Positions 1-4,559 of a DNA stretch of 64,000 bases are shown here, piece by piece. A model generated the notes under the pieces. That model worked only from the letters and a program-made list of their open reading frames with translations, had not been told where the DNA came from and ran no database searches. Within the stretch, counting starts at the first letter, position 1. Each line of letters begins with the position of its first letter. The stretch covers positions 1,053,001 through 1,117,000 of the forward strand of contig NZ_PGEP01000001.1 in the NCBI RefSeq assembly GCF_002797445.1, in the 5' to 3' direction. A program made the position numbers and the translations under genes. Origin of the DNA: Acidovorax sp. 69. GTDB lineage: Bacteria > Pseudomonadota > Gammaproteobacteria > Burkholderiales > Burkholderiaceae_C.

Positions 1-793
1 TGCCCAGCGTGGCGGTGGGTTTGCTGCCCGTGCTGGGCCGCACAAAAATACGGCTGCGCACGGTGGTGGTGGTCTGCGTGCCCGGCTGAATGTCGAAGCG
101 GTAAGCGCCGGTGGCACGGGGCGAATCCAGCAGCGCATACACGGTGACCTGCGTGGACAAGGGATCGGGCCGCACCAGCCAGAACTCGGTGAAGCGTGGG
201 AACTCTTCGCCACTGCCACCCACGGTGTCGATGGCCAGCCCGCGGGCCGACAGGCCGTACTGCTGGCCCTTGCCCAGTGCGCGGAAGTAACTTGCGCCCT
301 GGAAGACCACCAGCTCATCCTTGTAGGCGCTGGAGTTGAGGTGGTTGTGCAGGCGAAAGCCCGCAAAGCCGAGGTCGCCCCAGGCCTCAGGCCGCACCTG
401 GTTCTTGCCGTAGTCGAAGTCCGCGCGGCTGTAGCCGATGTGGCGCGCGCCCTGCGGCGTCACCTCGTTGATCAGCACTGGCTCCTTCTGGTACAGGCCC
501 AGGTGGAAGAACATGGCCTCGAACGGCAACTTTTCGGCGCGCCACAGGGCACGGTCAGGACGCCAGCGGATGTCGCGCACCTGGTCGTAATTGAGTTTGG
601 CGAGGTCGGCGGGGAGCGTGTCGCTGGATGCGCGATAAGGCTTCTCCGCACGTTCCCGGGCGAGGCGGGTGACGCTGTCGAAATCGAAGCTTTGGGCCTG
701 TGCGGCGCCTGTCAACAGGGCGGCGGCCAGCACCATCAAGGCTTGGGGGCGGCGGCCGGTGATACGTAAACGATGAGAAAAAACAGCTGGCAT
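1..793 (-). CDS. opgG: Glucan biosynthesis protein OpgG (MdoG), N-terminal part
   Basis: Periplasmic protein needed to build osmoregulated periplasmic glucans. The window holds about 264 N-terminal residues; the gene runs off the left edge. A signal peptide is visible (basic RRP near residue 15, hydrophobic core, AQA-QS cleavage near 34). The body matches the family: a KPYRAS-like start, INEVTPQGARHIGYS, then FRLHNHLNSSAYKDE, FQGASYFRALGKGQ and YGLSARGLAIDT. The ATG at 793 has no Shine-Dalgarno sequence. A sigma54-type promoter sits so close that its predicted start lies about one base before this ATG, so the mRNA may be leaderless. The next possible starts, a TTG near 739 and an ATG at 736, would spoil the signal peptide. 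It lies 181 bp downstream of glrR. OpgD is the main alternative. Confidence 0.88.
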   Translation of the reverse strand, partial: MPAVFSHRLRITGRRPQALMVLAAALLTGAAQAQSFDFDSVTRLARERAEKPYRASSDTLPADLAKLNYDQVRDIRWRPDRALWRAEKLPFEAMFFHLGLYQKEPVLINEVTPQGARHIGYSRADFDYGKNQVRPEAWGDLGFAGFRLHNHLNSSAYKDELVVFQGASYFRALGKGQQYGLSARGLAIDTVGGSGEEFPRFTEFWLVRPDPLSTQVTVYALLDSPRATGAYRFDIQPGTQTTTTVRSRIFVRPSTGSKPTATLG

Positions 794-805
794 GCTGAGA
801 CTAGG

Positions 806-820
806 GCAAACCCTGTGCCA
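806..820 (-). promoter_or_regulatory. Sigma54 (-24/-12) promoter of opgG
   Basis: On the minus strand the sequence reads TGGCAC, five bases, then TTGC. The GG (819-818) and GC (807-806) doublets are separated by exactly 10 bases, as sigma54 promoters require. The predicted transcription start is about 794, directly before the opgG ATG at 793. An A/T-rich stretch with a run of seven T lies just upstream on the same strand. The neighbouring glrR encodes a sigma54-dependent activator, which supports the call. No experimental proof. Confidence 0.75.
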
Positions 821-914
821 GCTTAAAAAAACTGTTTTAAATCAATGGCTTAAGTCATCAATTGCATGTAAGCAGTTGTGCGACCCGTGGATTGACGGGG
901 AAACCCCGGGTTTT

Positions 915-932
915 TGTCGCTGTATGGCGACA
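915..932. promoter_or_regulatory. Putative GlrR-binding site (TGTC-N10-GACA)
   Basis: A perfect TGTC-N10-GACA dyad in the glrR-opgG intergenic region, about 130 bp upstream of the predicted sigma54 transcription start. That is a usual distance for an enhancer-type activator site. From memory, enterobacterial GlrR binds sites of exactly this form upstream of the glmY and glmZ sRNA genes. The spacer can itself pair partly, so a plain hairpin is the alternative reading. Confidence 0.65.
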
Positions 933-974
933 GCGGGGCTGGGCGCTAGAGAAAAACTGAATCAAATCAACGGA

Positions 975-2393
975 CTAGTCGTGTCGCTCATCAGCGACGT
1001 CTTCGTTGTCCACAACATCGTTCTTGAAGTTTCCGGGGGTCAAGGCGTGCTTTTGCAGCAGCCGGTAGAACTCCGTGCGGTTGCGCTGCGCCAGGCGCGC
1101 CGCGTCGGCCACGTTGCCATCCGTCATCTTGAGCAGGCCCACCAGGTACTCGCGCTCAAACCTTTGCCGGGCCTCGGCAAAGCTCAGCACCTGGGTAGAC
1201 GGCGTGCGCAACGCGCGCTGCACCAGCGTCAGGGGCACGAGCGGTGTGGTGGACAGGGCGCACACCTGCTCGACGACGTTGTAGAGCTGGCGCACATTGC
1301 CGGGCCAGGAGGCCTGGGTCAGAGCCTTGAGTGCCTCGGGCGCAAAGCCTGACAGGCGTTTGTCGTACTTGCGTGCCAGCTTGTCGAGAAAATGATTGGC
1401 CAGCAGTGCGATGTCTTCGCGCCGGTCTGCGAGCGTGGGCAGAGTCAGCGTGACCACATTGAGCCGGTAGTACAGGTCCTCGCGAAACTGGGCCGTGGTC
1501 ATGGCCGCTTCCAGATCGCGGTGCGTGGCCGAGATGATGCGCACATCGATGGGAGTCGACTGGTTGGCCCCCACGGGGCGTACTGCGCGCTCTTGCAGCA
1601 CCCGCAGCAGCTTCACCTGCAGGGCGGGCGGCATGTCGCCAATCTCGTCCAACAGCAAGGTGCCACCTTCCGCGGCCTGGAACAGCCCTTTGTGGTGGCT
1701 CACTGCATCGGTGAAAGCCCCTTTGATGTGGCCAAAAAGTTCGGATTCGAGCAAGGCCTCCGGAATGGCGCCGCAGTTGACGGCGACAAAAGGGTGGCGT
1801 GCTCGCGGACTGGCTCGGTGGATGGCCTGGGCCAACAGTTCTTTGCCTGAGCCGCTATCGCCCAGCAGCAGCACGCTGGCGTCCGACTGGGCCACCATGT
1901 AGGCCTCGGCCAGCAGGTCGGTCATGCGGGCCGAGCGGCTCACGATGTCGGCCCGCCAGGCCTCGTTGGCGTGGGCCTGGTGCACGGCGGGGGCGCTCAG
2001 GGCCAGGGCCTCAGCCACTTTTTCCAGCAGCTCTTTGCCGTCGTAGGGCTTGGTCAGGTAGGTGAAGACGCCACGCGATGTGGCCTCGACCGCATCGGGG
2101 ATGGTGCCGTGCGCCGTGAGCAGAATCACCGGCAGCGAGGGGTGGCGTGCATGCACCTCATCAAACAGCGCCAGGCCATCCTTGCCGGGCAGGCGCACAT
2201 CGCTCAGCACCAGCTGGGGCCGGGCCACGTCGAGCTGTGCCAGCGCAGCCTCGGCCGAGCCCACGGCCATGACCTCATGCCCAGCGGCCTTCAGCCGCAG
2301 CGATAGCAGGCGCAGCATGTCGGCATCGTCGTCCACCACCAGGATGCGGTGGGCGGGGCTGTGGGCGGTTGCAGGGCGCGTGGATGCGGTCAT
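975..2393 (-). CDS. glrR: Sigma54-dependent response regulator GlrR/QseF
   Basis: Response regulator that activates sigma54 RNA polymerase; 472 residues. The receiver domain (about 15-130) has the acidic pair at DDD 21-23 and the phospho-acceptor Asp65 in LSDVRLPG. The AAA+ domain has Walker A GDSGSGKE (178-185), Walker B GGTLLLDE (243-250) and the sigma54-contact loop GAFTDA (225-230), where the usual sequence is GAFTGA. A Fis-type helix-turn-helix is near 430-460 (GNVADAARLAQRNRTEFYRLL). The C-terminus closely resembles E. coli GlrR. It lies 11 bp downstream of qseG and in line with glrK, as in enterobacteria. The likely target is the adjacent opgG. Confidence 0.9.
   Translation of the reverse strand: MTASTRPATAHSPAHRILVVDDDADMLRLLSLRLKAAGHEVMAVGSAEAALAQLDVARPQLVLSDVRLPGKDGLALFDEVHARHPSLPVILLTAHGTIPDAVEATSRGVFTYLTKPYDGKELLEKVAEALALSAPAVHQAHANEAWRADIVSRSARMTDLLAEAYMVAQSDASVLLLGDSGSGKELLAQAIHRASPRARHPFVAVNCGAIPEALLESELFGHIKGAFTDAVSHHKGLFQAAEGGTLLLDEIGDMPPALQVKLLRVLQERAVRPVGANQSTPIDVRIISATHRDLEAAMTTAQFREDLYYRLNVVTLTLPTLADRREDIALLANHFLDKLARKYDKRLSGFAPEALKALTQASWPGNVRQLYNVVEQVCALSTTPLVPLTLVQRALRTPSTQVLSFAEARQRFEREYLVGLLKMTDGNVADAARLAQRNRTEFYRLLQKHALTPGNFKNDVVDNEDVADERHD
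982..999. promoter_or_regulatory. Second, imperfect GlrR-like site (TGTC-N10-GACG)
   Basis: TGTC-N10-GACG, one mismatch from the site at 915-932. The centres are 67 bp apart. It overlaps the last codons of glrR (encoding DERHD), so codon constraint could explain it. A tandem arrangement would fit enhancer-bound NtrC-type regulators. Confidence 0.4.
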
Positions 2394-2404: not shown

Positions 2405-3112
2405 TCAGGGTTTGGCGTTGCCATTGCCGTTGCTGCTGCCCACGCCACTGGCGGCAGCGCCGGGGGGGCTTGTGGCCGGTGCTGTGGCGGGGCGCGTGGT
2501 CAGGCTGCGTTCAATGGCGCGCACGGCCTCCAGGCGCTCGCTCAGCTGGTCGTTGCGGCGCTGGGCTTCGCGCAGTTGCTGGGCCTGGCGATCCAGTTGG
2601 TCTTCCAGGCGGCGCTGCTGGGTCAGGCGTGCCTCCAGCAGGCGGGCCAGCGGGTGCAGGTCTTGGGCGGCGGGGTTGGCCAGGGTGCGCTGCACCAGGC
2701 CCAGGGCGCGGGCGGTATCCGCGGGCTGGCGGGTTTGGGCCAGCACCAGCGCCAGGCGCAGGGCGCGGGAGGGCTTGCTCTCGTCCAGGTCCGACAGCCG
2801 GGCCGTCTCACGCGCCAGGTCGGTGGTGCTGGCGCCCAGGGTGCGGTCGGCATAGGCCAGGGTGTCGCGCAGCAGGTCTTTGGCCGCTGTGGTGGGCTCG
2901 TCGCTTTCGGTGGCCAGTGGCTCGGGCTGGGCCGTGGCAGGCTCTGCGGCCTCTACCGCGTGGGCTGCGGTCACCGGAGCCGCATTGGGCGGGGTGGGGG
3001 CTGTGGCGCAGCCTGCCAGCCAGGCAGCGCACAGGCATGAGGCGGTAAGGCCCCAACGGGCAGCCCAGTGCGCTGGGCGGTCAGTCGGCAGGGCGTGCGG
3101 TTCAGGAAGCAT
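2405..3112 (-). CDS. qseG: QseG-like outer-membrane lipoprotein
   Basis: A 235-residue lipoprotein between the glrK and glrR genes, the place held by qseG in enterobacteria, where QseG modulates the kinase. The lipobox is LAGC with Cys35. An Ala/Pro-rich linker follows. A helical, charged region (about 140-215, with RLEDQLDRQAQQLREAQRRN) looks like a coiled coil. The C-terminal tail is low-complexity Gly/Ser/Asn. I chose the ATG at 3112 because it overlaps the glrK stop by 11 bases, which suggests translational coupling, and because it places the lipobox correctly. Sequence resemblance to enterobacterial QseG is weak, so the name rests mostly on position and architecture. Confidence 0.75.
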   Translation of the reverse strand: MLPEPHALPTDRPAHWAARWGLTASCLCAAWLAGCATAPTPPNAAPVTAAHAVEAAEPATAQPEPLATESDEPTTAAKDLLRDTLAYADRTLGASTTDLARETARLSDLDESKPSRALRLALVLAQTRQPADTARALGLVQRTLANPAAQDLHPLARLLEARLTQQRRLEDQLDRQAQQLREAQRRNDQLSERLEAVRAIERSLTTRPATAPATSPPGAAASGVGSSNGNGNAKP

Positions 3113-4559
3113 CAGGCAATTCGATTCGGAAAAAAGAGCGGGGGGCGTCGCCCGGCATCTGCAGCACCTGCACCCGCCCGCCGTGGGCGTGGATGTATTC
3201 CTGCACGATGGACAGCCCGATGCCGGTGCCGCGCACCGCGTTCTCAGGCTGGCGCTCGCCCCGGTAAAAGGGTTCAAACACATGGGCCCGGTCGGCGGGG
3301 GCCACGCCGGGGCCGTCGTCGGTCACATCCACCAGCACCTGGCCAGGCGCGCGCGACACGGCCAGATGCACGGTGCCTTGTTCGGGTGAGAAACGGATGG
3401 CGTTGGACAGCAGGTTGCCCATGGCTGAGGTGATTTTTTCTGCATCCAGCAGCAGCACGGTGCGCTCGCCGCTCACCTCCACCCGCAGGCTGCGGGCCTG
3501 CCATTGCAGGCGCTGGGCCTCGACCAGGTCTTCCAGCAGGGCGATCAGATCGGTCTCGCGCCGCTGCAACTGGCGGGCCTCGAAGGCGGCGGCGTTAAAG
3601 CGCAGCAGTGCCTCGATCTCGCTTTGCAGCACCAGGGTGTTCTGGTGCAGGATCTGCGTCACTTCTTTCTGGCCTTCGCTCAGTTCGCCGGTCACGCCGT
3701 CTTGCAGCAGGGCCACGCCCTCGCGCAGCGCAGCCAGCGGGGTTTTGAGCTCGTGCGAGACATGGCGCAAAAAGCGCGCCTTGTCGGCGTCCAGCTCCAG
3801 CAGCCGCAGGCGCAGCCACTCCAGTTGCTGGCCCACGCGGCGTACGTCGGCGGGGCCGGTGATGGCCACGGCTTGTTCCAGCTGGTTCTCGCCCAGGCGG
3901 CGAATGGCGCGCTCCAGCCGCTTGAAAGGGCGCGCCAGCCAGATGCCCAGCCACAGCGCTAACACCAGTGCCAGCACAATTGCGCCCACCAGTTGGTGCA
4001 TCACAGTGCGGCGGCTGGCGTCTACCTGCGCTTGCAGCTCGCTGGCCTGGCGGGCATTGAGTTCTTGCACCGAGTGCGTGATGGCCCCGTGCAGGGTGTC
4101 GAGCGCTACAAACTCTTCGGCCACGCTGCGTTCGTTCTCCAGCGACTGCCAGGGCGGTGCGTTCAGCAAATCGTGCACGGTCTGCATGCGGGTCTGCCAC
4201 TGCTGGGCTTGGGCGGGGGGCAGGCCTGCGTCGCTCAGCTGGCGCACGATGCCCTGGGCATCGACGGCCATGTCATCAAAGCTTTGGCGAAGGAGTGGGT
4301 CGTTCAGCACCAGCGATTGCCGGGCCGACCGCTCCATGGCTTGGCCACGCTGGTTCAGCGCCTGCGCGGCCACATTCAGCGCGGCCGCTTGGGCAGCGCT
4401 GGCCTGGCTTTGGCCCATCAGCGCTTCCAGGGTGAACACCGCGCGCAGGGCACTGGCGCCCAGCAGCCCCGCAATCAGCAAGAAGGCGAGCAGCAGCAGT
4501 TGCTGAAACGATGGGCCGTGCGGGCGAGCCTGCGGGTGGCTCGTGGGGTGTAGGGCCAT
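3102..4559 (-). CDS. glrK: Sensor histidine kinase GlrK/QseE
   Basis: Membrane sensor kinase, 485 residues, expected to phosphorylate GlrR. TM1 is about 20-42. A mainly helical periplasmic domain spans 43-187. TM2 is 188-209, followed by a HAMP segment. The phospho-acceptor His269 lies in FLRHVSHELKTPLAAL. The ATPase domain shows the N box (NLLSNAIRFSPEQG), G1 (DVTDDGPGV) and G2 (GTGIGLSIV). The gene starts 16 bp after miaB on the same strand and overlaps qseG, so miaB-glrK-qseG-glrR probably form one transcript. The signal is not evident from sequence; in enterobacteria this system responds to envelope and amino-sugar status. Confidence 0.88.
   Translation of the reverse strand: MALHPTSHPQARPHGPSFQQLLLLAFLLIAGLLGASALRAVFTLEALMGQSQASAAQAAALNVAAQALNQRGQAMERSARQSLVLNDPLLRQSFDDMAVDAQGIVRQLSDAGLPPAQAQQWQTRMQTVHDLLNAPPWQSLENERSVAEEFVALDTLHGAITHSVQELNARQASELQAQVDASRRTVMHQLVGAIVLALVLALWLGIWLARPFKRLERAIRRLGENQLEQAVAITGPADVRRVGQQLEWLRLRLLELDADKARFLRHVSHELKTPLAALREGVALLQDGVTGELSEGQKEVTQILHQNTLVLQSEIEALLRFNAAAFEARQLQRRETDLIALLEDLVEAQRLQWQARSLRVEVSGERTVLLLDAEKITSAMGNLLSNAIRFSPEQGTVHLAVSRAPGQVLVDVTDDGPGVAPADRAHVFEPFYRGERQPENAVRGTGIGLSIVQEYIHAHGGRVQVLQMPGDAPRSFFRIELPDAS

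Follow-up and report, generated by a model that had tools for sequence, protein, structure and literature searches.

A conserved putative GlrR/sigma54 promoter cassette upstream of opgG in Acidovorax sp. 69

The opgG gene of Acidovorax sp. 69, and with it opgH, is very probably controlled by the response regulator GlrR together with sigma54, through a predicted promoter located immediately upstream of opgG. Osmoregulated periplasmic glucans (OPGs) shape both the periplasm and the signalling of the envelope, and the literature that we searched describes no regulator of opgGH transcription in the bacterial group studied here. A direct link to GlrKR would supply a concrete opgGH regulator with testable bases. 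Here, we analysed a 64-kb stretch of the genome, hereafter referred to as the window, in which two upstream activating sequences (UAS1 and UAS2), an exact IHF consensus and a -24/-12 element follow one another, in this order, upstream of opgG. Two aspects are new. The spacing between the promoter and the opgG ATG is fixed, from which a leaderless sigma54 mRNA is predicted; and GlrR may own a constant promoter module whose envelope target genes change.

The glrR-opgG locus and its promoter elements

On the minus strand of the window, the genes are arranged in the order glrK-like kinase, lipoprotein-like gene, glrR and, after 181 bp, opgG. The succession of kinase, lipoprotein-like gene and regulator follows the gene order of the GlrK/GlrR (QseE/QseF) operon. 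The kinase gene (3102..4559, minus strand) encodes HAMP, HisKA and HATPase domains, and its product aligns with E. coli GlrK over 433 columns at 32% identity (E 1.3e-60). The lipoprotein-like gene (2405..3112, minus strand), which sits between kinase and regulator at the position of qseG, has a lipobox-like LAGC, identified by eye. It has no match in Pfam or NCBIfam, and comparison of its product with E. coli QseG gave no significant match (BLAST E 0.057, 17 residues). The regulator gene, glrR (975..2393, minus strand), encodes an NtrC-type sigma54 response regulator of receiver-AAA+-HTH architecture, in which GAFTDA replaces GAFTGA. Two observations agree with the initial annotation, which had named this neighbour GlrR: the protein is 56.7% identical to E. 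coli GlrR across 448 columns, and GlrR is its top NCBIfam model, with 605.7 bits. The curated cut-off of 763 is not reached, which limits the use of the equivalog name and not the family resemblance; many other activator models, including NtrC, also give high scores. The closest named relatives of the protein, among the matches listed, are from Acidovorax, with 91-92% identity. The first 264 codons of opgG (mdoG) occupy 2..793 on the minus strand and the gene continues past the window edge; this part matches Pfam MdoG (PF04349) with 299.1 bits against a cut-off of 25. In the genome, opgH is located downstream of opgG, with the OpgG match running slightly into the OpgH match, and there is one rpoN match.

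The sigma54 -24/-12 element, TGGCACAGGGTTTGCC, is found at 805..820 on the minus strand and thus reads from 820 to 805. Its GG-N10-GC spacing is provided by TGGCACAGGGTTTGC, which is conserved across loci. The IHF-type site, AATCAATGGCTTA (840..852, plus strand), lies between the dyads and the -24 element and fits WATCARNNNNTTR exactly; at the sequence level it has the position expected of an IHF site between UAS and promoter, and the IHF consensus has three exact matches on the two strands of the 64-kb window. UAS2, the promoter-proximal dyad (915..932), is a perfect copy of the GlrR-type form TGTCGC-N6-GCGACA and reads TGTCGCTGTATGGCGACA on the plus strand. UAS1, the promoter-distal dyad (982..999), which reads TGTCGCTCATCAGCGACG on the plus strand, has one mismatch and is located within the 3' end of glrR. 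There are accordingly at least two UAS of the TGTN12ACA type upstream of the promoter, UAS2 as a full match and UAS1 off by one end base. They are 67 bp apart, and UAS2 is 112 bp from the -24 element. The minus-strand promoter element and both dyads, the perfect one and the one-mismatch copy, had been proposed in the initial annotation and were found at exactly these positions; it contained neither the IHF site nor the overlap of UAS1 with glrR, and did not predict a leaderless start.

Taken singly, elements of this kind do not stand out from chance. The form TGTC-N10-GACA occurs twice in the window, with 0.76 expected, and 71 times in the genome, compared with 63 times for the reversed control. 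The 12-base dyad, allowing one mismatch, gives 38 genomic matches versus 73 for its reversed control, so the genome shows no enrichment of single dyads; in the 64-kb window, just the two copies at opgG are found. When one dyad, the spacing and the -24/-12 element are required together (the strict composite), a single match is left in the genome, at opgG, and no second target of this form exists there. Autoregulation of glrKR through a second cassette was also considered; it is unsupported, as the only two dyads in the window at this stringency are both at opgG.

The presence of GlrR, sigma54 (rpoN) and an IHF site fits with the mechanism of E. coli QseF/GlrR. By analogy, GlrK would phosphorylate GlrR, and phosphorylated GlrR would bind the two dyads, with IHF bending the DNA between these and the promoter. 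The AAA+ ring of GlrR would then remodel the sigma54-RNA polymerase waiting at the -24/-12 element, and transcription would begin at the first base of the opgG ATG or at the base preceding it, to give a leaderless mRNA. The outcome would be expression of the opgGH operon and the synthesis of OPGs. It is the product only that suggests a link to osmolarity.

Conservation of the cassette and its association with GlrR

The cassette was searched for in 81 loci, the window and the best 80 of 585 confirmed GlrR candidates. Up to three mismatches per dyad and two in the promoter were allowed, within spacing limits; these relaxed limits were chosen after the window had been seen. The counts are not independent, since they come from related species and from two genome collections with shared members (L052 and G005, for example). 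With these limits, the two-dyad cassette is found in 73 of the 81 loci. All except two of these cassettes have at most four mismatches overall (71/73), L068 and L073 being weak with seven each. One of the eight loci scored as negative, L058, also contains a pair of dyads and a promoter, but their spacing is beyond the limits. The controls gave 2 matches in 1620 dinucleotide shuffles, none on the 81 opposite strands and 38 among 1762 other pieces of the same loci. The last figure corresponds to 30 places, 24 of which have 7-8 mismatches and 16 of which represent one recurring site within the opgH coding sequence; four of the 30 are true cassettes in a second layout (L075, L076, L078 and L080). 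The distance between UAS1 and UAS2 is 67 bp in 49 of the 73 cassettes, and UAS2 is 110-113 bp from the -24 element in 56. The IHF site, whose position within the cassette is fixed, is exact in 40/73 cassettes and has at most one mismatch in 70/73, while base shuffles give 0.8% and 10.5%, respectively. It is the arrangement of the elements, unlike the single elements, that is far beyond chance. In L030, about 700 bases separate glrR from the cassette, and both dyads adjoin opgG, at distances of 714 and 779 nt to the stop codon of glrR.

The initial annotation had proposed an alignment of glrR-opgG intergenic regions as a check on the dyads and the promoter. This was carried out as mean pairwise identity over 31 divergent opgG loci, that is, 34 loci minus three with similar spacers. 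The dyad arms are 91% (UAS1) and 95% (UAS2) identical and the -24/-12 stretch 90%, while the dyad centres have identities of 42% and 41%, respectively, and the two spacers of 41% and 33%. The dyads and the -24/-12 bases are thus kept where the neighbouring bases are not. The IHF site has an intermediate value of 67%.

The association of the cassette with GlrR was examined in 299 genomes of the family to which the window belongs, with GlrR counted at E <=1e-100. GlrR is present in 86 of them and MdoG in 100, divided into 77/86 genomes with GlrR and 23/213 without. The strict composite occurs at 79 places in 73 of the 299 genomes. In 57 of the 86 glrR-positive genomes, it is found on the strand of the GlrR match, 47-850 nt past it. 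A further 22 places lie elsewhere (8 in glrR-positive and 14 in glrR-negative genomes), as many as the reversed control gives in these 299 genomes (22 matches, counted by eye). None of the 23 family genomes with MdoG and without GlrR has the composite in its strict form. In 29 of the 86 glrR-positive genomes, no strict composite was found downstream of glrR. The relaxed limits were applied to 27 of the glrR-positive genomes that lack an adjacent strict match: both dyads and the promoter are present in 23, one dyad in three and none in one. The stretch fetched from these genomes includes opgG or opgH in 20 of the 27, and no OPG gene in the other seven.

Two of the 22 places elsewhere are true cassettes (G119 and G282), with glrR located 49.5 kb away or on another contig. 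In the loci of these two genomes (L127 and L128), both dyads and the promoter are kept before opgGH despite the distant glrR. The cassette therefore follows opgGH, and not glrR, in these two loci.

Genes behind the cassette and the position of the start codon

The gene that follows the cassette is opgG in 34 of the 73 loci, opgH in 28, a BON-domain gene in 10 and unclear in one. All 10 BON-domain genes score above the Pfam cut-off. In the second layout, which is of the Rhodocyclales type (L075, L076, L078 and L080), the cassette lies upstream of glrK, is directed away from it and precedes a bactofilin gene; the bactofilin genes are above the Pfam cut-off in 4/4 cases, one tested as a piece. 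A short BON-like N-terminus still follows glrR in L076, L078 and L080. A wider survey, covering 369 genomes of the class, used a two-dyad pattern with gaps nearer to the E. coli spacing, such that the 95-base gap of the Acidovorax sp. 69 genome falls just outside. This pattern was found at 43 places in 39 genomes, against 3 for the control, by our own count. Thirty class places (L160-L189) were inspected, and GlrR is encoded inside the 1.5-kb flank of 10. Several are followed, about 50-120 nt downstream, by small secreted-looking proteins with EF-hand-like repeats, three of which were tested; two are above a Pfam cut-off and one is below. About 350-460 nt after the cassette in L169, L178 and L183, there is a frame that we take to be YbgC-like.

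OPG synthesis is thus the commonest output of the cassette among the loci examined. The initial annotation had proposed that GlrR acts on opgG as a new output. The conservation, the rpoN gene and the IHF site support this proposal. The cassette is not specific to opgG, as opgH, BON-domain and bactofilin genes also follow it in other loci.

The opgG ATG of the window (791..793, minus strand) begins 27 nt past the T of TGGCAC, which corresponds to about position +1/+2 of the predicted sigma54 transcript. The same distance is seen in 26 of the 34 opgG loci, and in 31 of the 34 an ATG in frame is located 26-28 nt past the -24 T, while the distance to the mature protein varies. Several of these loci have no alternative in-frame start ahead of the signal peptide. 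The exceptions are L052, L062 and L063, and there is no ATG at this position in L127 and L128 either. Sigma54 start sites are situated about 12 nt beyond the -12 bases. With this spacing, the 5' end of the transcript would fall on the ATG or one base earlier, leaving no room for a ribosome-binding site, and the sigma54 mRNA of opgG is predicted to be leaderless. A substitution test on the signal-peptide region of opgG gave a weak result, 0.86 in frame versus 0.96 and 1.05 in the other frames, and for this reason the start codon was assigned from its frame and position.

The other outputs differ in this respect. In the 10 BON loci, the ATG is located 73-95 nt from the same T and comes after AGGA-type ribosome sites, which indicates ordinary leaders. 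Among the 28 opgH loci, six carry an ATG at 27-29 in the reading frame of opgH, and three have neither this ATG nor the open reading frame described next. In the remaining 19 (L015, L026 and L031, for example), a conserved open reading frame of 66-70 codons starts at 27 and ends at or just before opgH. Its pN/pS is 0.54 in its own frame compared with 1.11 and 1.42 in the other two, a pattern of purifying selection. The one member tested has no Pfam match.

Leaderless AUG starts have been described at mapped transcription start sites in Sinorhizobium meliloti, where 171 have been reported (PMC3616915). As in those mRNAs, where AUG is the first base of the transcript, the opgG mRNA is predicted here to start on its AUG. 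The portion of that report available to us ties these starts to no RpoN promoter, whereas here the link consists of a conserved fixed spacing. No leaderless starts tied to the sigma54 promoter class were found in the literature searched by titles and abstracts. If confirmed, a sigma54 promoter with its start fixed on the AUG would offer a clean model system in which leaderless translation is subject to a tightly gated activator.

Comparison with known systems and alternative explanations

In E. coli, QseF, helped by IHF, binds TGTN12ACA sites upstream of the sigma54 promoter of glmY (PMC6075780). That this promoter has the same dyad had been stated in the initial annotation, and reading the glmY promoter of E. 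coli MG1655 directly showed the same dyad type, TGTCGC-N6-GCGACA. There, TGTCGCTTTCTGGCGACA and TGTCTCTTTTTAGCGACA are 63 bp apart, compared with 67 here, and 107 bp separate them from TGGCACAGTTACTGCA, compared with 112 bp to the -24 element here. The two systems also have in common the involvement of IHF, at sequence level in our case, the order kinase-lipoprotein-regulator, an activator that is 57% identical, and the HTH stretch RNRTEFY. However, the output in E. coli is a small RNA and here it is opgGH; the cassette lies upstream of glrK in E. coli and downstream of glrR here; a third TGTC-N10-GACA is found further upstream at glmY; and the predicted leaderless mRNA and the GAFTDA loop are particular to the present system. 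The initial annotation had seen no glmY or glmZ target, and GlmY, which E. coli has, was not found in the Acidovorax sp. 69 genome with the Rfam model. QseF also activates an rpoE promoter (PMC6075780). From its description, this promoter, rpoE P2, resembles that of opgG in being a sigma54 promoter with similar UAS and an envelope function, and differs in that its output is a sigma factor and not an OPG gene.

Other lineages control opgG otherwise. In Pseudomonas syringae, RpoD-like and RpoE-like promoters have been predicted at mapped 5' ends of mdoG (PMC3247240). The literature searched, by titles and abstract openings, includes no report that GlrR/QseF controls opgG, opgH or a BON gene. In the available portions of the texts, opgG, mdoG and glucan do not appear in PMC3162934 and PMC12316311, nor do opg, mdoG and glrR in PMC9045368, and PMC8301835 names MdoG just as an RNA-polymerase-associated protein.

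Three other explanations of the cassette were weighed. The sigma54 promoter could be real and the physiological activator of the dyads an NtrC-type protein other than GlrR. Sigma54 activators have a common architecture, the GlrR of the window scores high with other models such as NtrC, and a P. aeruginosa NtrBC transcriptome table lists opgG as changed, though in another lineage (PMC7214821). Against this, the strict composite adjoins glrR in two thirds of the glrR-positive family genomes (57/86) and is missing from all 23 genomes with MdoG and no GlrR, and both the dyad type and the HTH stretch are those of E. coli GlrR and its glmY promoter. We therefore regard another activator as unlikely. 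It is also conceivable that, as at glmY, the elements serve an unrecognised small RNA, or some other transcript from the glrR-opgG interval, and that opgG is transcribed otherwise. The small RNA driven by E. coli GlrR is a precedent, and some gammaproteobacterial loci have several hundred bases between the promoter and the next gene. The predicted start, however, falls on the ATG of opgG, which is in frame in 31/34 loci; GlmY was not found in the genome; and the cassette remains at opgGH where glrR is apart, which together make this explanation very unlikely.

Even less probable is that the conserved sequence is no promoter at all and reflects chance, conservation of glrR codons or a hairpin that terminates glrR. 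UAS1 does overlap glrR codons, and both dyads are able to form hairpins. On the glrR strand of the window, however, no T-run follows either dyad, and AAAA comes directly after UAS2 in 19 of the 31 divergent opgG loci. The offset of UAS1 to the glrR stop codon takes many different values across the cassettes while its distance of about 67 bp to UAS2 holds, so UAS1 is not kept as coding sequence; the dyad centres are free to vary, and shuffles give 2/1620. On the shift of UAS1, the fixed spacing and the variable centres, the terminator and coding-conservation readings of the dyads were rejected.

With GlrR/sigma54 control of opgGH as the preferred explanation, a broader reading can be put forward tentatively, at slightly less than even confidence. 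GlrR may own a portable promoter module, made of two dyads at a near-fixed spacing, an IHF site and a -24/-12 element, which lineages have recruited for different envelope genes: GlmY, opgGH, opgH, BON-domain proteins, bactofilins and small secreted EF-hand proteins. The OPG branch would have fused this module to the start codon, with selection on the promoter-ATG spacing, making opgG obligately leaderless, or, in the Variovorax-type loci, a conserved protein of about 67 amino acids before opgH. The evolutionary constant of GlrR would then be a promoter layout with an envelope output, as these data suggest, and not the GlmY small RNA of the enterobacterial work. A rewired activation is suggested as part of this reading by the GAFTDA loop, which could alter the contact with sigma54; in NorR, the substitution G266D in the same motif gives full escape from repression (PMC2941729). 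GAFTDA is found in 56 of the 81 loci, 30/35 with opgG and 26/28 with opgH, and GAFTGA in the BON loci where the motif is readable (12/14), a split that follows phylogeny and in itself proves nothing.
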